Below, one piece after another: positions 4,627-16,854 of a stretch of DNA of 22,253 nucleotides (positions are counted from its first letter, which is position 1; each line of letters begins with the position of its first letter). Source of the stretch: a virus; IMG/VR virus record IMGVR_UViG_3300047121_000653, positions 1-22,253 of that record, one strand, 5' to 3'. The notes beneath the pieces were generated by a model that did no database searches, was not told where the DNA came from, and saw only the letters and a list, made by a program, of their open reading frames with translations. Made by a program: the position numbers and the translations under genes.

Positions 4627-4832
4627 ATGCTGAGATGCAACATCTCATGCCCCACAATTCCAGTCCACACGGACGATACCGCAGGCAGGCTAGAGGCACA
4701 GCGCCCACATGCCCCTGCTGTGGAGCCAAGTACAAAGCCGCCTCCACTCGAGAGCGGATCACTTGGTACTACCGTCAATGCAACTGTGCCCCCAAGCATG
4801 GTATTCCACGCCAAAGGCCGAGCCGATACTGA
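4605..4832 (+). CDS. Zinc-ribbon protein, Ogr/Delta-like
   Basis: A perfect AGGAGG at 4589-4594, ten bases upstream, decides the ATG at 4605 inside the end of the previous gene. The 75-residue protein has TCPCCGAKYKAASTRE followed by YRQCNC. This resembles the C-x2-C ... Y-x-Q-C-x-N-x2-C zinc ribbon of the small late-transcription activators Ogr of P2 and Delta of P4, where the metal site supports contact with RNA polymerase. Here the second pair is CNC rather than C-x4-C, so the metal site may differ. Being placed next to the terminase, it could be a late-gene regulator or a packaging accessory protein. Its TGA overlaps the terminase ATG (4830-4834). Confidence 0.6.
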   Translation: MVVFAELNAEMQHLMPHNSSPHGRYRRQARGTAPTCPCCGAKYKAASTRERITWYYRQCNCAPKHGIPRQRPSRY

Positions 4833-7093
4833 TGGCAAAGAAGCGACCGCCAGCCGCAGCAGCTCCCGAGGATCCCGAGGACGACGACAACGAGTCTGGC
4901 TCGGAGCGTCCCAAGGACTCTTACGCCAAGCACCGCAAACGCCAGGCCTCCAAAGCCAAAGAGGAATCGACCGAGGCCAGAGACATCGGGCCGATTCCGG
5001 CGATCGTCAATCCTAAGCGACGAGAGTCCTGTCGGCTCAATCTCAAGAAGTACCTTCTGACGTACTTCAAAGAGTCCTTCCCGCTGCCGTTCAGTGAGGA
5101 CCATGAGCGGATCCTCAAGGAAATCGAAGAGCGAGCGATCAACGGAAGCTTGAAGTGCATCGCCATGCCGCGAGGGAGTGGCAAGACAACTGTCCTGTTG
5201 CGAGCCCTGCTCTGGGTGCTGTCCTATGGACATCAGCGATTCGGAGTCCTAGTCGAAGCCGACGAAGGTGCTGCCGAGGAATCGCTCGATGTGATCAAAA
5301 TGGAGTGGGAAACCAATCCACTGCTCCTGGAGGATTTTCCTGAGATCGCTTTTCCGATCCGATGCCTCGAGGGAATCACCCAGCGAGGCAACGCGCAGAC
5401 GACCCAGGGCAAGCGAACGCTGATTGGATGGCGTCGGAAAGAGCTCGTGTTTCCGACGATAGAGGGATCGCAGGCGGCTGGGGCAATTATTCGCTGCACC
5501 GGAATCCTTGGGCGAGTCCGAGGCATGCAGAAGGTACTCGCCGACGGCAAGACAATTCGACCTAGTTTCGTGCTCGTCAACGACCCACAGACCGACACTT
5601 CGGCACTGTCCGACGCGGAATGTGCCAAGCGGGAAAAGGTGATCGGGGGCGCAATCCTAGGCCTTGGTGGGCCTGGGAAACGAATCGCAGGCTTTGCGGC
5701 CGTCACCGTGATCCGAGAGGGCGACGTAGCTGACCGGATGCTAAACCACAAGCTCATGCCCAAATGGCACGGCGATCGATGCCGGCTGGTCTATGAGTGG
5801 CCGACAAACCGGGAATTGTGGACAAAGTACTTCGACATCCGCGCCGAAGAGATCGCCGAAGGAAACGACGAGCATCCCAAGGGCAACAAGTTTTACAAGG
5901 CCAACCGCGAAGCGATGGACGCAGGGTCCCGGGTGGGCTGGGCACATCGCAAGTTTCCTCACGAGATCTCGGCGATCCAGCACGCCGAGAATCTCCGTTT
6001 CGATAATCCGGACACGTTTGACGCCGAGTATCAAAACGAGCCCAAGAAATCGATTGTTGCCGTCGATGGCATCCGCTGCCTGACCTCCGACGAGTTCTGC
6101 TTGCGGATACTCCCGACGCACCGCCGAGGGGAGATTCCCGACTGGGTCGAGCACATTACCTTGGGGGTCGACGTTCAAGGATCCTCGCTCTGGTGGGTCG
6201 TTGCCGGTGTCGGTGCCGACTTCTCCGGGGTAGTTGTCGATTATGGGATCTGGCCCGAGCCTGGGATCGACTATGTCACGCTCGCCGACATCGATCGGAC
6301 CATCATACGAGCCACCGGAATCCGATCCTCTACCGAGTCGCTATTGGTCGCGCTAGGCAAGCTCCGAGACGAGCGACAAGCGGTGATTTATAGTCGCGAC
6401 GACGGGACGCAGTTCCGGCCTGAGATCATGGTCGTGGATGCGGGGTACCAGACGGAAGTCGTCTATCGATTCTCCCAGATACATCAGCACGTGGTTCCAA
6501 GCCATGGCAAGGGAGTCACTGCACGCCAGAGGCCCTGGAACCAGGAGAAGAAGAAAGCCGGGGAGCGGATGGGGTTTGGTTGGCGCATGCCACCGACCCG
6601 AGGCACCCGGGCCCCGCGGTACTGCCTCGTCGACACGAACACTTGGAAGACGGCCATGATGGAACGCTGGACCACCGATGCAGGGGAGCCTGGTGCTTGG
6701 TGGCTCTACCGAGCCGCCCCGCTGCGTCACCGGATGATCGCTGACAACCTTTCTGCAGAATACCCCACGAAGACTCAGGGGCAAGGCAGAGAGCTGTTTG
6801 AGTGGGGATGCAGGCCAGGACGGGACAATCACTTCCTTGACGCGACGATCCTAGCCGCGGTGGGTGCCTCGATCCTGGGGGTGAAAGTTCCCGGTGAGTC
6901 GGATCGAGTGGTACGCCGCCGCAAGATTTCCATGTCCGACCGATCCGGACAGGATCGACCCGAGCAGGATCAATCCCGAGAGCCGTCACCGGTCGAGCAG
7001 CGAGTCGAAGCCGTCGAGAAGATCGCCAAGCGGCCGAACGATGGCAAGCTTACCCTAGCCGAGCTGCGGGCCCTCAGGCGGAAGAGTGGGTGA
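4832..7093 (+). CDS. Terminase large subunit, GpA-type
   Basis: This is the ATP-driven DNA-packaging motor and nuclease that cuts concatemers and fills the capsid. I chose the ATG overlapping the previous stop (TGATG), giving 753 residues; the frame is open upstream without a better start. Residues 1-60 are charged and low-complexity. The ATPase domain shows Walker A (RGSGKTT, 114-120) and a Walker-B-like strand FVLVNDPQTD (D251). The nuclease domain shows the acidic triad context of GpA enzymes: GVDVQ (D447), VVDAG (D536) and NHFLDAT (D670), the last close to the usual N-x-x-L-D end. The C-terminal 80 residues are charged. The gene ends the plus-strand block and its last 39 bases overlap the convergent gene 7055-7459. 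Confidence 0.92.
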   Translation: MAKKRPPAAAAPEDPEDDDNESGSERPKDSYAKHRKRQASKAKEESTEARDIGPIPAIVNPKRRESCRLNLKKYLLTYFKESFPLPFSEDHERILKEIEERAINGSLKCIAMPRGSGKTTVLLRALLWVLSYGHQRFGVLVEADEGAAEESLDVIKMEWETNPLLLEDFPEIAFPIRCLEGITQRGNAQTTQGKRTLIGWRRKELVFPTIEGSQAAGAIIRCTGILGRVRGMQKVLADGKTIRPSFVLVNDPQTDTSALSDAECAKREKVIGGAILGLGGPGKRIAGFAAVTVIREGDVADRMLNHKLMPKWHGDRCRLVYEWPTNRELWTKYFDIRAEEIAEGNDEHPKGNKFYKANREAMDAGSRVGWAHRKFPHEISAIQHAENLRFDNPDTFDAEYQNEPKKSIVAVDGIRCLTSDEFCLRILPTHRRGEIPDWVEHITLGVDVQGSSLWWVVAGVGADFSGVVVDYGIWPEPGIDYVTLADIDRTIIRATGIRSSTESLLVALGKLRDERQAVIYSRDDGTQFRPEIMVVDAGYQTEVVYRFSQIHQHVVPSHGKGVTARQRPWNQEKKKAGERMGFGWRMPPTRGTRAPRYCLVDTNTWKTAMMERWTTDAGEPGAWWLYRAAPLRHRMIADNLSAEYPTKTQGQGRELFEWGCRPGRDNHFLDATILAAVGASILGVKVPGESDRVVRRRKISMSDRSGQDRPEQDQSREPSPVEQRVEAVEKIAKRPNDGKLTLAELRALRRKSG

Positions 7094-8294: not shown

Positions 8295-8322
8295 TTGCTA
8301 AGACGCGCTATCGTTAGGTTTG
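8294..8322. repeat. 29-bp imperfect direct repeat, copy 2
   Basis: Partner of 8056-8084 (three mismatches). It contains the last codons and TAG of gene 8298-8582 and the first base of the GTG start of gene 8085-8294, so the two copies bracket gene 8085-8294. Confidence 0.6.
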
Positions 8323-8582
8323 GTGATGATTGGTACCGCCTGCAATTTGAGCAAGCCTACCTGCATCTCTAACACCGCTTTGGGGATGTATCGATCTTTC
8401 AAGTCAAGCTTGTAATTGAAAACCGAGTATGCATTTCGGAACACGAATCTGACCACCAGGTCATCATTGCAGGACCAATTAGCATACAGGCCCTCGCAGT
8501 GCGAAGCCTTGAAAGCCTCCCACCACTGTACAAACTCGCCAAGACAGGCAAAGGCTTGGGTGTCTTTGTCATCGGTTGTCAT
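8298..8582 (-). CDS. Hypothetical protein (94 aa)
   Basis: ATG at 8582 overlaps the upstream TGA (ATGA). Unrecognised. The protein is mixed alpha/beta with an aromatic N-terminal helix (EFVQWWEAFKASHC) and strand-like VVRFVFRNAYSVFNYKLDL. It has no membrane span or metal site. Its end (LLKLQAVPIITKPNDSAS) lies in repeat copy 2. Confidence 0.7.
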   Translation of the reverse strand: MTTDDKDTQAFACLGEFVQWWEAFKASHCEGLYANWSCNDDLVVRFVFRNAYSVFNYKLDLKDRYIPKAVLEMQVGLLKLQAVPIITKPNDSAS

Positions 8583-8953
8583 CGCAGTAGCTCCAATCGT
8601 CCTTTGCCGAGGATCTCTTTCACGGTGGCCTCTTTCCCGCTTCGGTGGTCTTTGACGAGCCCGCGCGAGAAGTTGTAGGTGCGAACCACGGTGTGGTCGT
8701 GAATCGCTACGTCGCGACGATCCTTGCGGACCTTGGCCTGTGCGTCGGCTTTGGCCTGGGCGATCCGCTTGTCCAGTTCGGCCAGGGCCATGCGGTACGA
8801 CGCTTCACGTGTCCGGCAGTCGGCGTAGGCCGAGATTCCAGACGCATGATCGGTGATCCGACAAGCCGACTCGATCTTGTTGCGGTTCTGGCCACCTGGG
8901 CCAGTTCCCCGCATGTACTCGATCGTCCGTCCGTTTCTGGTTGATTTGGTCAT
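8579..8953 (-). CDS. Stand-alone class I release-factor domain protein with GGQ motif
   Basis: This 124-residue protein carries the catalytic domain of class I peptide chain release factors without codon-recognition domains. RGTGPGGQNRNKIESACRI (residues 15-33) matches the R-S-S-G-P-G-G-Q-x-x-N-K-x-x-S-A-V-R-I signature; GGQ is at 20-22 and places a water in the ribosomal peptidyl transferase centre to free the nascent chain from tRNA. The C-terminal VRTYNFSRGLVKDHRSGKE resembles the end of bacterial RF domains (I-R-x-Y-x-x-x-x-x-x-V-x-D-H-R). ATG at 8953 overlaps the upstream stop by four bases. Relatives are ArfB/YaeJ, PrfH and mitochondrial rescue factors; a basic C-terminal ArfB-like tail is absent. 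It could rescue stalled ribosomes, or release peptides prematurely. Confidence 0.85.
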   Translation of the reverse strand: MTKSTRNGRTIEYMRGTGPGGQNRNKIESACRITDHASGISAYADCRTREASYRMALAELDKRIAQAKADAQAKVRKDRRDVAIHDHTVVRTYNFSRGLVKDHRSGKEATVKEILGKGRLELLR

Positions 8954-9126
8954 CGGTCAAACTCTATCTTCACTTCTAGGATTCCGCAGGCTAGCAGCAC
9001 TCCGAAGATCAGTATAGCGATCAGGGGAATCAGGAGCATCGGCCAGCATCCGTTGTTGGTCCGGGCCCGAGCTGCTTCGCGGGGGATCGCTCCGCCGCCG
9101 AGCAGCAGTCCGAGTAGTTTGAACAT
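8950..9126 (-). CDS. Small one-span membrane protein (58 aa)
   Basis: ATG at 9126, stop TGA at 8950-8952, overlapping the ATG of the GGQ gene (ATGA). The protein starts MFKLLGLLLGGG and has a strong hydrophobic segment CWPMLLIPLIAILIFGVLL followed by ACGILEVKIEFDR. One membrane span, possibly with a second short N-terminal hydrophobic helix. It fills what would otherwise be a gap of about 180 bases, and coupling at both ends supports it. The competing longer minus-strand frame at 8957-9202 is Arg/Ser-rich and reads as a shadow. Function unknown. Confidence 0.66.
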   Translation of the reverse strand: MFKLLGLLLGGGAIPREAARARTNNGCWPMLLIPLIAILIFGVLLACGILEVKIEFDR

Positions 9127-9134
9127 AGCTTGCC

Positions 9135-9554
9135 TCAGTTCGTGCTAGGTTTGATCCATCTGGTAATGATGCCGCACAAGCTCTGGTTGTTCTGGGCCAC
9201 AACGGCCCGGAGCTGGTCGAGCTCGGCGTCCTTGGCTTTCCTGGCCTTGCAATGCTCCGCGTTGATCTTCCACAATTCGTCGAAGTTCCTCACCAGATTC
9301 TTGTTGATGTCACGGAGCTGGTCGAGTTTGGTTTGTAAGGCTTTCTTGTCCCTGACGTGCTGCGCGAGGAATCGCGTCAGTTCGTCGTTGCTTTTCTGCA
9401 TGTGATTTTTAGTGTCACGCAGAAGCTCGACTTCGTCGCGAAGCTTTCGGGCTGCGTCGAAGATGGCCAGCAGGAGACCGGGATGCGTCTCCCATTTGCC
9501 GATGAGAGCCATTGCCTCATCGACACTCAATGGGTTGTCGTGGTCGGTGCTCAT
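9135..9554 (-). CDS. Coiled-coil protein (139 aa)
   Basis: I start it at the ATG at 9554, which overlaps the stop of the 29-residue upstream peptide (ATGA); the frame is open to 9620 but that part overlaps upstream coding. After MSTDHDNPLSVDEAMALIGKW comes a long run of heptads (residues about 40-120, including LRDEVELLRDTKNHMQKSN and LQTKLDQLRDINKNLV) typical of a parallel coiled coil. The C-terminus (CGIITRWIKPSTN) is short and aromatic. No enzyme motif. Structural or scaffold-like role possible. Confidence 0.68.
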   Translation of the reverse strand: MSTDHDNPLSVDEAMALIGKWETHPGLLLAIFDAARKLRDEVELLRDTKNHMQKSNDELTRFLAQHVRDKKALQTKLDQLRDINKNLVRNFDELWKINAEHCKARKAKDAELDQLRAVVAQNNQSLCGIITRWIKPSTN

Positions 9555-9640
9555 AGCGAGGGCCCTCGAAAGTCGTCGTCGCCGAGCGCAATGATGACGC
9601 AGAAAAACACTACGACGCAAACAGCAATGATTAGGTCCAT
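9551..9640 (-). CDS. 29-residue membrane peptide
   Basis: The ATG at 9640 overlaps the stop of gene 9640-11166 (TGATG) and its own stop overlaps the ATG of gene 9135-9554 (ATGA), so it is locked into a coupled series. The product begins MDLIIAVCVVVFFCVIIAL, a single membrane span, and ends with acidic GDDDFRGPSL. The longer open frame up to 9808 is antisense-like and Arg-rich and overlaps a real domain, so I reject that extension. Likely missed by gene callers because of its length. Confidence 0.55.
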   Translation of the reverse strand: MDLIIAVCVVVFFCVIIALGDDDFRGPSL

Positions 9641-11166
9641 CAGTTGCACCGGCTCCCGCAGCTTGCGTACCCGGCGATGTCCACCCAGTTGTCCCGTTTG
9701 CGTTGGTGCGTCTCGCGGGAGGTCTTCAGCAAGATCATCGCCAGTGCGACGTCTCGGGACTCGAATGTCACCCCGTCTTTGAGCTTGGAAAGGAACAATG
9801 CCGACCACATGCCAGCGGTCCGGCGGAAGTCCTGATCAGGAGGCCCGTATTGCGATTGACGACTGCCACGCGTGATCCGGGATGCTTCGGCCAGGATGTC
9901 CTCGTCGTCCTCGTCGTCGTCGTCTTGCTCGGCGGCGGTAGGGTATGGGACTTCGACCTCTAGGTGATAGTCGCGAAGCTGCATGGCCAGGCCTGCGAGC
10001 CCCATCCACTGGCCAAGATAGGTGATTCGATCTTGGTCGTCGATTCGCACATCTCGCACCCGCTTGTTGAGCCAAATGGCCAGGGTCAGCTCGGCCACAG
10101 CTCCATTGCTGTTCTCCCAGCCTGGAAGCAGGACAATCTCGTCGCACCGCAGGACGGCCTCGAGGCACCGACGCACGGTCTTGGCGAAGTCCATGCTTTT
10201 GGGAAAGGTGCAAGCGTCACGATTCGCATGCGATGGATTTGCGTACGGATCGAAACCATCGTGCTTGCGATCCTCGTCCGCTGGGCTGATGACTTCGTTG
10301 CCGGCGTCGCGCAGCTCTTTGGCGACGCGATCGAAAAGCGGGTAGTTGAACCAAGCGATCCCTCGCATCGGCCCAGCGATGTACAGGACTCGCTTGCGTT
10401 GGATTGGCTCGGTAATCGGCTCCGCGTCTGTATCGTACGCATTCGGTACCGTGTATCCGATCGTGATCTTTTCGTTCTGCATGTTCGCGAAATCTGTTTC
10501 GGGAACATCTAGCTTTTGCTGTGTTTCCGTTGGTCCGTCCATGACCATTTTGCTGGCGTCAGCAGAATGGTTGTCGAGCAAACTGTTCGGAGTTTCCGAA
10601 GGGTTCGAACTGTCCGAGATTTCCGGATCGTTGGATGCAAAGACATCGCTTAGCTTCTTTGGCCAGTCCGAAAGCGTTCGCCCAACGTTGCGATGAGAAA
10701 TCGTAACGATTGCATTTCCAGCGAGCGCAGCAATGTCGCATGAGTAAATCGTCGAATCCCATGCTTTCAGCACGCCATCAACATACAAGGCCTCGTCTCC
10801 GCTGTCGTCAGTCACGGCAACAATTTGCTTGACTCTCTCGTAAGTGTCAGCGATTTCCTCAGTTGTTAAGGATTCCTTGATAACTGGTTCGGGCTCGACG
10901 GCAACTGTCAAGGATTCCTTAACAGTTGGTTCAAGCTCAAAGGCAACGGTTTTGACGATCGGCTTTTCGACCTCCGAGACCATCTGGACACCCATCTGTG
11001 AAAGGTCCGGTGGACGGTCGATCGAACCGATCTCCACTAGCGATCCATCCACCGTGTATTGCCTCCCTCCGATCAAAGTATCTACTTGAGCCTGTAAAAG
11101 CTTGCCAACAACATGCGGGTCAAAGTGCTTTGCTGCATGAATCACCCGCCATTTAAAATCCTTCAC
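9640..11166 (-). CDS. Fusion of DUF4406 (deoxyribosyltransferase-like) and DUF6378-like domains
   Basis: GTG at 11166 is fixed by AGGAGG eight bases upstream. The 508-residue chain has an unrecognised N-terminal half with a 14-residue duplication (VKESLT ... VIKESLT, about 82-101). Then comes a DUF4406-type Rossmann domain at 259-372: VLYIAGPMRGI, NYPLFDRVAKELRDAGNEVISP, CDEIVLLPGWENSNGA and AELTLAIWL. These fit the nucleoside 2-deoxyribosyltransferase-like family. An acidic linker follows (414-423, DDDDEDDED), then a DUF6378-type helical domain at 424-504 (RQSQYGPPDQDF, DVALAMILLKTSRE, RDNWVDIAGY), probably related to MazG-like NTP pyrophosphohydrolases. Role: modified nucleotide pool or nucleotide-signal turnover. 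Function of both domains together is inferred. Confidence 0.8.
   Translation of the reverse strand: MKDFKWRVIHAAKHFDPHVVGKLLQAQVDTLIGGRQYTVDGSLVEIGSIDRPPDLSQMGVQMVSEVEKPIVKTVAFELEPTVKESLTVAVEPEPVIKESLTTEEIADTYERVKQIVAVTDDSGDEALYVDGVLKAWDSTIYSCDIAALAGNAIVTISHRNVGRTLSDWPKKLSDVFASNDPEISDSSNPSETPNSLLDNHSADASKMVMDGPTETQQKLDVPETDFANMQNEKITIGYTVPNAYDTDAEPITEPIQRKRVLYIAGPMRGIAWFNYPLFDRVAKELRDAGNEVISPADEDRKHDGFDPYANPSHANRDACTFPKSMDFAKTVRRCLEAVLRCDEIVLLPGWENSNGAVAELTLAIWLNKRVRDVRIDDQDRITYLGQWMGLAGLAMQLRDYHLEVEVPYPTAAEQDDDDEDDEDILAEASRITRGSRQSQYGPPDQDFRRTAGMWSALFLSKLKDGVTFESRDVALAMILLKTSRETHQRKRDNWVDIAGYASCGSRCN
10861..10927. repeat. Two 25-bp palindrome-like repeats inside gene 9640-11166
   Basis: 10861-10885 and 10903-10927 share the palindromic core AAGGATTCCTT with nearly matching flanks, 42 bp apart. 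In protein they encode the 14-residue duplication around KESLT. The same 11-base core also occurs at 2-12. They may only reflect an in-frame duplication, or they may be protein-binding or RNA hairpin sites. Confidence 0.55.
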
Positions 11167-14290: not shown

Positions 14291-14547
14291 TGGTTGGCCT
14301 CCATCTGCACTGCCTTGCTAGGATCCGTGGATTGCTTGATCTCCGACAACAACTCAGCACAGTGGTAATGCAGAAGGATGTTGATGATCGACAGCGCGAA
14401 CAAACCAGTTGCCATAAAACAAAGGTCGCTGACGTCGGACTTGATTTTTACGAGATCTCGCCCGATGTCTTGAATGCCACGACTCACATCAGTCTCGAAA
14501 CGGGTCGGAGTCTTTGGCTCCACCCGAGTGATTGGTGGTAATCTCAA
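14287..14547 (-). CDS. Small one-span membrane protein (86 aa)
   Basis: The TTG at 14547 overlaps the upstream stop (TTGA); a GTG at codon 9 is an alternative start. A predicted helix (IQDIGRDLVKIKSDVSDL) leads into one membrane span, CFMATGLFALSIINILLHY, and an acidic-basic tail. The amphipathic helix plus one span arrangement is like XhlA-type membrane proteins linked to lysis, but no endolysin is in the window, so this remains a shape comparison. Confidence 0.62.
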   Translation of the reverse strand: MRLPPITRVEPKTPTRFETDVSRGIQDIGRDLVKIKSDVSDLCFMATGLFALSIINILLHYHCAELLSEIKQSTDPSKAVQMEANQ

Positions 14548-15404
14548 GATGCCACCGTGTCACCTTTCTTGCTGGCTCGCTTGGGCTTGGTGGCCTTGGC
14601 CGAGAGAGCTGCGGAATAGGTCCCGACTCGTCCACGGTCTGCGACGCGCCTGGACGCTGCGTCGCACGCGGCTTTCACATCTTTTACTTGGCCCTCGAAG
14701 TCGTCCTTTTTGCTGGGAAAAAGGTCTCCGTCGATTACATACAACTTGCTGGTGTCGCCACCCTTCTCCGCCTGGAGCTTTTCACGCTCGGCGATCTGCT
14801 TCTTGGTCACCGTCAGGTTGACATGCTTGACTCTCGAACCGATCGCTCGTACTGGATCGAGCTTGCTATGGAACGCAGCCAAGCCGGTGGGGTCTGGATC
14901 GATTTCGAAGCCAGGGAGAAAGTTCTGGACGAATTGAGCGGCCACGATCTCCCGAGCTTGGGAAACCTCGTAAGACTCCTCTCCGTAGAGCTCGGCCGTA
15001 CGAGCGAACCAGCCGAATTCGAAGTCGTGGGGCCGGATCCGGAGCTTGGGCCGACCTTCGTCGTCGAGTTGGATCTGCCCCGTCTTTTTGTTCTTCGCGA
15101 GCATCAGGTGCCGCAGCTCGTGATCGATCACCGCTTGCAGTCGTTTGCTCGTCCATGCGTCCATCCGTTCGCCGTCGAGGGTCATCAGAGCATCGCCGAG
15201 ACCCAGGGTCCGCTCGGCTAGCTTGGTGATCCGGATGCATCCAGCGGCCTCGGAGCCTCGCACCTTGATCGCTGGCCCCTCTTCGCTCCTGGCGATCAGT
15301 GCGGTGATTGTCACGCCTGCTGCATGCAGATCCCCATGGTTTTCTTTCATGACCTTCTGAATCGTCAGGTTCACTTCTTCATTCGCAATGCTGTACCAAC
15401 TCAT
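14544..15404 (-). CDS. Putative phage metallopeptidase (HExxH)
   Basis: ATG at 15404 overlaps the upstream stop (ATGA) and has AGGGAG about seven bases upstream; the ATG at 15410 is too near that site. The 286-residue protein contains AVIDHELRHLML with the HExxH zinc motif (H95-E96, H99) and RPHDFEFGWFARTAELYG about 25 residues later. Both elements occur in the phage-metallopeptidase family (PF18894-like), where the second holds conserved His, Asp and Glu/Phe. The remaining 130 residues (EREKLQAEKGGDTSKLY, then a Lys-rich end ATKPKRASKKG) are not recognised. It lies in the early operon, which suits an attack on a host protein; this is inferred. Confidence 0.78.
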   Translation of the reverse strand: MSWYSIANEEVNLTIQKVMKENHGDLHAAGVTITALIARSEEGPAIKVRGSEAAGCIRITKLAERTLGLGDALMTLDGERMDAWTSKRLQAVIDHELRHLMLAKNKKTGQIQLDDEGRPKLRIRPHDFEFGWFARTAELYGEESYEVSQAREIVAAQFVQNFLPGFEIDPDPTGLAAFHSKLDPVRAIGSRVKHVNLTVTKKQIAEREKLQAEKGGDTSKLYVIDGDLFPSKKDDFEGQVKDVKAACDAASRRVADRGRVGTYSAALSAKATKPKRASKKGDTVAS

Positions 15405-15766
15405 GCCCATTCTCCCTTGTCATTTACCGAAATCGTTTTCTTGAGACGATGCACAGTGCCTCCGTCTCTTCTCTCGTCTGTCGTCTCGATGATTCCCCAG
15501 GCCCGAAGGTCCGAGAAAGGTTGTGTCCAACAGTTGATTCCCCGGCCACTGATCGCAGCCATCTCACGCATCGTGAGTCCGCGAGCAGCTCGGGAGATCG
15601 CCGTGAAGACTTGCATTCGCTTGCCGACGATCAGCCTCGATTCCTTCCGTGCCGAGTCCGACCGTGCCGCAGCCAATCGGACGATGTCCCGATTCGCGTC
15701 GGCAGCGTCGCCAGACAGGGGGAGGAATTGTTGCTGAAACGCTGTCACGGTGATCACTCCATCCAC
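15401..15766 (-). CDS. Winged-helix DNA-binding protein (121 aa)
   Basis: Two GTG starts fit: 15766, or 15757, which overlaps the upstream stop as GTGA. The C-terminal half has a helix-turn-helix and wing: VFTAISRAARGLTMREMAAISG, then WTQPFSDLRAWGIIETTDERR and GTVHRLKK. This resembles phage winged-helix proteins with ALxxRPMTxEEIA-like starts and a GlIxxxxxRR wing. Probable regulator or replication accessory. It overlaps neighbours at both ends. Confidence 0.68.
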   Translation of the reverse strand: MDGVITVTAFQQQFLPLSGDAADANRDIVRLAAARSDSARKESRLIVGKRMQVFTAISRAARGLTMREMAAISGRGINCWTQPFSDLRAWGIIETTDERRDGGTVHRLKKTISVNDKGEWA

Positions 15767-16225: not shown

Positions 16226-16432
16226 CTATCGACGAGGCACGATGCGTCCGACGAGCGGACGATACTGCCTAACTGGGGTTTTCACTGTGCGAGAGATCGC
16301 ACGTGAGCACTGGCCTGACACGCACTGTGTCGCCGATTTGGTCGTCTCGGCTGCTGCGATCGCCGCATAGCCACCGCCGAGCAATACCAAACACATCGCA
16401 TACAACACCAACCACAGACTTTGGGACCTCAT
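16226..16432 (-). CDS. Small secreted protein with signal peptide (68 aa)
   Basis: ATG at 16432 follows GGAGG by five bases. The N-terminus is a classic Sec signal: MRSQSLWLVLYAMCLVLLGG, then AAIAAAETTKSA, with a likely cut after AAA. The mature part (about 40 residues) has two cysteines, CVSGQC, and is basic (RAISRTVKTPVRQYRPLVGRIVPRR). No family known to me. A lipobox is absent, so a soluble periplasmic or outer-face peptide is likely. It lies downstream of the tRNA-like cluster on the same strand. Confidence 0.7.
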   Translation of the reverse strand: MRSQSLWLVLYAMCLVLLGGGYAAIAAAETTKSATQCVSGQCSRAISRTVKTPVRQYRPLVGRIVPRR

Positions 16433-16496
16433 TGTCGCCTCCGCTGGAAAAGACTATCAACCAAACCGCCTCGTACGTCGCTCGTACGACTGGCAA

Positions 16497-16567
16497 AGCC
16501 CTGAGCAGGATTCGAACCCGCGCTTCCTGGATTACTCCAGGTGTTCCTCCGCAATAACTTTCAGGGC
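16497..16567 (-). tRNA. tRNA-like gene, near-complete cloverleaf, 6-base anticodon loop
   Basis: On the minus strand the 71 bases fold as: 7-bp acceptor GCCCTGA/TCAGGGC, weak D arm (GTT/AAC), 5-bp anticodon stem CCTGG/CCAGG, 4-base variable region, and a T arm GCGGG-TTCGAAT-CCTGC with the classic TTCGA loop, set exactly against the acceptor stem. The anticodon loop is AGTAAT, six bases instead of seven, and has no U at the expected position, so I cannot assign an amino acid. CCA is not encoded. It may be a real tRNA with odd loop, a decoy or a decaying gene. Confidence 0.55.
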
Positions 16568-16571
16568 TAAA

Positions 16572-16639
16572 AGGACCGGACAGGGTTTGCCTGCATTTCG
16601 ACGCACCAAAGGCGCGAGACTTACTTAGTCGACCGGTCC
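16572..16639 (-). tRNA. Degenerate tRNA-like element 2
   Basis: Minus strand, 68 bases, four bases upstream of the element at 16497-16567. Acceptor-like stem GGACCGG/CCGGTCC is perfect (7 bp). The other arms are GACT/AGTC, CGCGC/GTGCG (with one G-U that works only on this strand) and GCAGG/CCTGT next to the acceptor. Loops are short (five bases) and the T loop lacks TTC. Probably a degenerate or non-canonical tRNA-like RNA. No CCA. Confidence 0.4.
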
Positions 16640-16717
16640 TCGCCACACTTTGCGTTTCGCAGTGGCCTCGCGGTTTCGATTAACGTGACTTCCACTCACG
16701 AGACCCCGAGGGGTCAA

Positions 16718-16784
16718 AGGACCGTGCGGGGTTCACACCCGCTACTCAAACGTGAAAAGGGTAATACTTGGTGGTATACGGTCC
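16718..16784 (-). tRNA. Degenerate tRNA-like element 3
   Basis: Minus strand, 67 bases. Perfect 7-bp acceptor-like stem GGACCGT/ACGGTCC, immediately followed by a perfect T-type arm GCGGG-TGTGAAC-CCCGC (5-bp stem, 7-base loop), as in a tRNA top half. The bottom half is only 35 bases: ATAC/GTAT could form a D-like arm, and no good anticodon arm is visible. Its acceptor shares GGACCG with element 2, suggesting common descent. Confidence 0.4.
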
Positions 16785-16854
16785 TCGCAACTTAGGCAGT
16801 TGCCGCCTCAACGTTCGAGCTTGCGAGAAGCAGGCACAAGGCCATTGCGACTCG

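Follow-up and report, generated by a model that had tools for sequence, protein, structure and literature searches.

Stand-alone phage proteins built on an RF-1 domain are already known from mycobacteriophages, from Acinetobacter phage 133 and as the family phrog_3122. Many mycobacteriophages have annotated RF-1 genes. Such genes occur in mycobacteriophage tRNA arrays and are a core gene of some mycobacterial tRNA arrays; a rescue role has been proposed for them, and the combination of RF-1 domain, phage and tRNA array was noted in the same work (PMC5966550). The RF-1 gene of Acinetobacter phage 133 also adjoins a tRNA cluster. A published survey of release-factor domains leaves phage members unmentioned in its main text (PMC6514570), and in the literature we found no functional test or activity report for any phage protein of this kind. 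Two findings on cellular proteins bear on what such a protein could do: ArfB no longer binds the ribosome once its tail is removed (PMC8012679), and a shortened switch loop slows release by RF1 (PMC6561943).

The DNA analysed here, referred to as the window, is an IMG/VR virus record of 22,253 bp that carries terminase, integrase and further phage genes, among them one for a small protein with a release-factor GGQ motif. The family of this protein is an architecturally distinct, new subfamily within a class of phage proteins that is already known but uncharacterised. The features discussed below are as follows.

4709–7093, plus strand: terminase large subunit
8298–8582, minus strand: 94-residue ORF that overlaps the GGQ gene at its stop codon
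8579–8953, minus strand: gene for the 124-residue stand-alone RF-1/GGQ protein (pI 10.2, net charge +12)
8642–8683, minus strand: RF1/RF2-type C-terminal hairpin RTYNFSRGLVKDHR, residues 91–104, absent from ArfB
8687–8713, minus strand: site of the release-factor switch loop, residues 81–89; the GxGxRxDK motif and three further residues are missing, with IHDHT instead
8876–8896, minus strand: catalytic GGQNRNK motif, residues 20–26, invariant in an 11-sequence family alignment
8950–9126, minus strand: 58-residue ORF with a hydrophobic stretch, immediately upstream of the GGQ gene
16496–16568, minus strand: tRNA gene with a 6-nt anticodon loop (ARAGORN and Rfam), part of a tRNA-like cluster
16571–16640 (end-points estimated from the related locus L005), minus strand: tRNA-Gln(UUG)-like element with a shortened T loop
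20211–21362, plus strand: integrase

The gene, its phage and the probable host

The ORF occupies exactly 8579–8953 on the minus strand, starts with ATG and encodes 124 residues (MTKSTRNGRTIEYMRGTGPGGQNRNK...VVRTYNFSRGLVKDHRSGKEATVKEILGKGRLELLR), with a GC content by codon position of 0.60/0.49/0.72. It is a real gene under purifying selection and not a chance ORF. There are 21 full-length homologues with 67–100% identity, all in other viral contigs (IMG/VR) and all carrying GGQNRNK, and dN/dS relative to the window is 0.02–0.10 where dS is measurable. Between the window and L011 the GGQ protein is 97% identical, against 54% for the nearby gene at 9135–9620. An alternative genetic code was considered and rejected: likely genes terminate on all three stop codons, and the GGQ ORF requires no special code.

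In many of the related loci (L001–L012, L014, L015 and L019) the GGQ gene is surrounded by the same genes as in the window, namely terminase, metallophosphoesterase and/or a DUF4406/DUF6378 protein, as far as the contigs extend. In L013, L016, L017, L021 and L022 it is flanked by genes without a match to those of the window, apart from a weak metallophosphoesterase similarity in L021 (27%). The window's own DUF4406 (nucleoside 2-deoxyribosyltransferase-like) and DUF6378 domains are fused in one 508-residue frame (9640–11166, minus strand), and a putative phage metallopeptidase lies at 14544–15410 on the minus strand (PhageMetallopep, 50 bits).

Of 392 Planctomycetota genomes, 53 contain homologues of the terminase at E≤1e-20, with 40–45% identity for the best; none of 200 genomes from the phylum of Sphingopyxis does. 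This distribution points to a planctomycete host, and the viruses with this GGQ family probably infect Planctomycetota bacteria. Given the integrase, the phage is probably temperate.

Architecture and ancestry of the GGQ protein

The Pfam RF-1 model (PF00472) detects the protein at 60.4 bits (E 2.1e-16), above its cut-off of 35 bits. NCBIfam models score it at 53.5 bits for RF1, 45.7 for PrfH, 42.4 for RF2 and 19.6 for ArfB, the last aligning to residues 11–39 only. All four scores fall far short of the full-length cut-offs, the RF1 and RF2 models reaching 42–54 bits against 370–423, because the C-terminal part alone is present. A sequence search of the PDB returned RF1, RF2, mitochondrial RF1 and PrfH; among phage families, phrog_19918 (355 positions, unknown function) matches residues 13–121, and phrog_3122, annotated ‘RF-1 domain peptide chain release factor’, matches residues 10–42 only (E 5.9e-5).

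The protein begins about 10 residues ahead of domain 3, so that release-factor domain 1 and the codon-reading domain 2 are absent and the full set of domains 1–4 is not there. The GGQ itself is intact at residues 20–22. Relative to RF1, the RF1-type switch loop motif GxGxRxDK has been lost between the helix and the hairpin; the RTY..DH hairpin of RF1 and RF2 is present. In the predicted structure (mean pLDDT 87.5), strands surround the GGQ loop and a single 37-residue helix (residues 49–85) follows the GGQ lobe; next come strands at 91–94, 99–102 and 108–110, together with two short helices. All 38 Foldseek matches in the PDB at E≤0.001 are class-1 release factors (RF1, RF2 or mitochondrial RF1), most of them ribosome-bound structures, with PrfH falling just below that threshold. 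The BFVD neighbours are phage proteins: a Caudovirales ‘PrfB’ (164 residues), proteins of Acinetobacter phages 133 and Henu6 (76 residues) and one of Pseudomonas phage phiPsa347 (131 residues). The protein is a release-factor domain 3 with intact GGQ together with the release-factor C-terminal hairpin.

The preliminary description of this locus, which had been made from the letters alone, called the gene phage-borne, with a full GGQ signature and with neither stop-codon recognition domains nor an ArfB-like basic tail. Each of these points holds: the record and the homologues are viral, GGQNRNK is complete, the decoding domains are gone, and the last 30 residues carry a net charge of +4 compared with +6 to +9 in ArfB. 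The picture of a bare GGQ domain needs amending, as the RTY..DH segment of RF1 and RF2 has been retained.

These likenesses bear on the idea that the protein works off the ribosome, recycling dropped-off peptidyl-tRNA in the manner of Pth. Jumbo phages (PMC7824862) and phages with tRNA arrays (PMC5966550) also encode PTH2, so that such a need does exist. The sequence of the GGQ protein, however, is like that of release factors and not like that of Pth. GGQ catalysis is, to our knowledge, confined to the peptidyl-transferase centre, where class-1 release factors use it, and we regard an off-ribosome hydrolase as highly improbable.

For phylogeny the comparison set comprised bacterial and phage proteins. 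Several ‘phage’ entries in the ‘phages’ collection seem to carry bacterial prfA or prfB, and counts by phage name from that collection were not used. In two maximum likelihood trees the window family together with L025 and L026 forms a supported clade (99/94 and 100/99) outside RF1, RF2, PrfH and ArfB, separated from the ArfB clade with support of 94/80 and 88/86. The AU test nevertheless rejects neither a grouping with ArfB (p 0.25–0.26) nor one with RF1/RF2/PrfH (p 0.12), because the alignment has only about 118 columns. The release-factor-type hairpin argues for ancestry from the release factors.

A scan of genome contigs found no member of the family among cellular sequences; it returned ArfB, PrfH-like proteins of Achromobacter and Novimethylophilus, and one stand-alone protein from Ktedonobacterales. 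Against the 392 Planctomycetota genomes the family profile reached about 65 bits at best, and among the matches listed the best lay in RF1-sized open frames, mostly of 350–390 residues, of which the ten that were read are RF1. A separate observation concerns a Phycisphaerales genome (G001), which encodes a cellular GGQNRNR protein in a 222-residue open frame (L150), unlike both ArfB and RF1 and on a long branch in the tree.

That the phage simply carries an ordinary host ArfB or PrfH is very unlikely. The AU test leaves room for it, but the architecture already contradicts it: there is no ArfB tail and only the short, low-scoring ArfB match, and there is no PrfH decoding domain. A host copy was ruled out on this architecture, the contig scan and the planctomycete genomes. 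The preliminary description had proposed a phylogeny against ArfB and PrfH and had named placement within them with host-like synteny as what would speak against its reading; in the trees the family is nested in neither, and no such synteny was found.

Coupled losses and tRNA arrays among the phage relatives

Among 78 phage relatives, every protein with a remnant of the decoding domain (GGHRxQRVPPTE..HTSTVTVAV) has the switch loop, and none without the remnant has it. A strict pattern gave five apparent exceptions, all resolved on reading by eye (GMRADK, GQRADK and GHRAEK; RVPPNE). Many of the 78 are close relatives, and the independent cases perhaps amount to four to six lineages. With no codon reading there is nothing left to couple, and a joint loss of switch loop and decoding domain would make sense. 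The co-loss can be regarded as a natural experiment, which supports the switch loop as the coupler between decoding and catalysis. We suggest, tentatively, that phages have repeatedly reduced class-1 release factors to a codon-blind catalytic core, losing the decoding domain and its mechanical coupler together, and use the product as a counter-defence or supply module, often within tRNA arrays, that rescues ribosomes which have jammed in the course of infection. Such a route of ribosome rescue would dispense with both the ArfB tail and ArfA. Many large phages among the relatives (L027–L050, L056–L061 and L064–L077) encode PrfH-like release factors with the decoding-domain remnant and GGQNRNK, often inside dense tRNA arrays.

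In the window, the tRNA-like cluster that the preliminary description had linked to the GGQ gene does exist and includes one tRNA called by ARAGORN and Rfam (16496–16568, minus strand), but it lies about 7.5 kb from the gene. A tRNA also lies at about this distance in L003, L005, L006, L011 and L012, and one at 2–3 kb in L013, L016 and L017. The elements of the cluster (16400–16820, minus strand) have common GGACCG...CGGTCC ends, and the callable one has the 6-nt anticodon loop. The L005 equivalent of the Gln(UUG)-like element has an intact T loop and is called as tRNA-Gln by ARAGORN. The same odd loop as in the window occurs in L006, a Thr(UGU) tRNA occupies the matching place in L011 and L012, and L013 has another odd tRNA. 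A whole-window Rfam search in gathering mode missed the tRNA at 16497–16567 (minus strand), which scores 36 bits in e-value mode, above the gathering score of 29.

In the loci of the 78 relatives ARAGORN found 407 tRNA or tmRNA genes, with at least one in 40 loci and one within 1 kb in 19. Around the relatives in 25 large-phage records, tRNAs number 5.2 per 10 kb, about 5.9-fold more than the 0.89 per 10 kb in the remainder of those records. This comparison sets local ARAGORN calls against Rfam calls minus the local ones for the remainder; the density is higher locally in 15 of the 21 large-phage records with at least three tRNAs. Since two programs are mixed and many of these relatives retain the decoding-domain remnant, the statistic is context from the wider group and not proof for the window family.

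Such arrays bear on whether the protein might strip nascent chains from elongating ribosomes and so stop host synthesis. The preliminary description had raised host shut-off as one of several possibilities and had seen deliberate interference with translation. A codon-independent hydrolase could do this, and the protein is small and strongly basic. Shut-off would also strike the phage's own translation, however, the integrase alongside suggests a temperate phage, and relatives cluster with tRNA genes, which help translation. Nothing favours this claim; the tRNA arrays around relatives fit support or rescue of phage translation better, and we consider host shut-off unlikely.

Ribosome anchoring, probable function and known systems

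The best explanation, to which we give about an even chance, is that the protein is a phage-specific class-1 release factor derivative that hydrolyses peptidyl-tRNA on the ribosome independently of the codon, a rescue factor that supports phage translation. The part that cuts has been kept and the part that reads stop codons has been lost, and the protein would thus most likely free stuck ribosomes. Loss of the codon-reading domain and of the switch loop, which couples codon reading to the placement of the GGQ, would release it from codon control. It could then enter stalled ribosomes at the A site, or 50S subunits that retain peptidyl-tRNA, as mtRF-R does. Docked by means of its long basic helix and the hairpin, or by a partner, it would release the nascent chain. 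The benefit to the phage would be a supply of ribosomes while it takes over the host, or once host RNases or anticodon nucleases have brought translation to a halt.

The hardest objection to rescue is anchoring, for the protein has no ArfB-type tail; as ArfB needs its tail for binding, a GGQ domain that lacks one may be inactive by itself. The slower release seen with a shortened RF1 switch loop also counts against the best explanation, as do the lack of a partner gene conserved next to it across the family, the distance between the GGQ gene and the tRNA cluster, and the fact that the tRNA statistics come mostly from distant large-phage relatives.

The missing anchor is also what speaks for a partner-dependent release factor, whose catalytic half would be placed in the decoding centre by a host or phage adaptor, as in ArfA–RF2 or MTRES1–mtRF-R. 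Consistent with this, 32 of the 41 stand-alone phage proteins retain the RTY..DH hairpin, although domain 2/4, into which it normally packs, is missing. The neighbourhood offers no candidate: comparison of the loci found no adjacent gene conserved across the family, the 58-residue ORF being confined to the closest phages (L001–L010) and the 94-residue ORF to L001–L004 and L008–L010, and the neighbours have no informative Pfam match. An obligate partner encoded next door was therefore rejected, and partner dependence in general seems rather improbable. Inactivity of the GGQ protein on its own would point to a partner. Activity would make it a minimal codon-independent release enzyme that has no known ribosome anchor; it would then serve to test what portion of a release factor peptidyl-tRNA hydrolysis requires, and would reveal how phages keep ribosomes free.

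Among known systems, domain 3 of RF1 and RF2 gives the best profile and structure matches, the likeness comprising the GGQ domain, the following helix and the RTYNF..V.DHR hairpin, whereas domain 1, the codon-reading domain 2 (PxT/SPF) and the switch loop are missing and the C-terminal helix is shortened. The stand-alone phage RF-1 proteins (phrog_3122, Acinetobacter phage 133 p133, Pseudomonas phage phiPsa347) are likewise small and GGQ-only, several lying near tRNA genes, but the trees place the mycobacteriophage type apart, and the RTY..DH hairpin is missing from its relatives in viral contigs. PrfH and the PrfH-like release factors of phages and plasmids share a domain 3 without domain 1; PrfH differs in retaining a decoding-type domain and in its link to RtcB, while the large-phage and Variovorax/Achromobacter relatives keep the decoding-domain remnant and the switch loop. 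RtcB was found in 3 of the 25 large-phage records but neither in the window nor in 8 further small records of the family that were searched, and a PrfH–RtcB repair module was rejected for the window family. The most likely functional likeness is with ArfB (YaeJ)/ICT1 and C12orf65 (mtRF-R), by analogy with their codon-independent GGQ rescue without a decoding domain. The phage protein has no basic C-terminal tail and has the release-factor hairpin that ArfB lacks, and mtRF-R joins its GGQ domain to a basic C-terminal extension and acts on the split 50S subunit.
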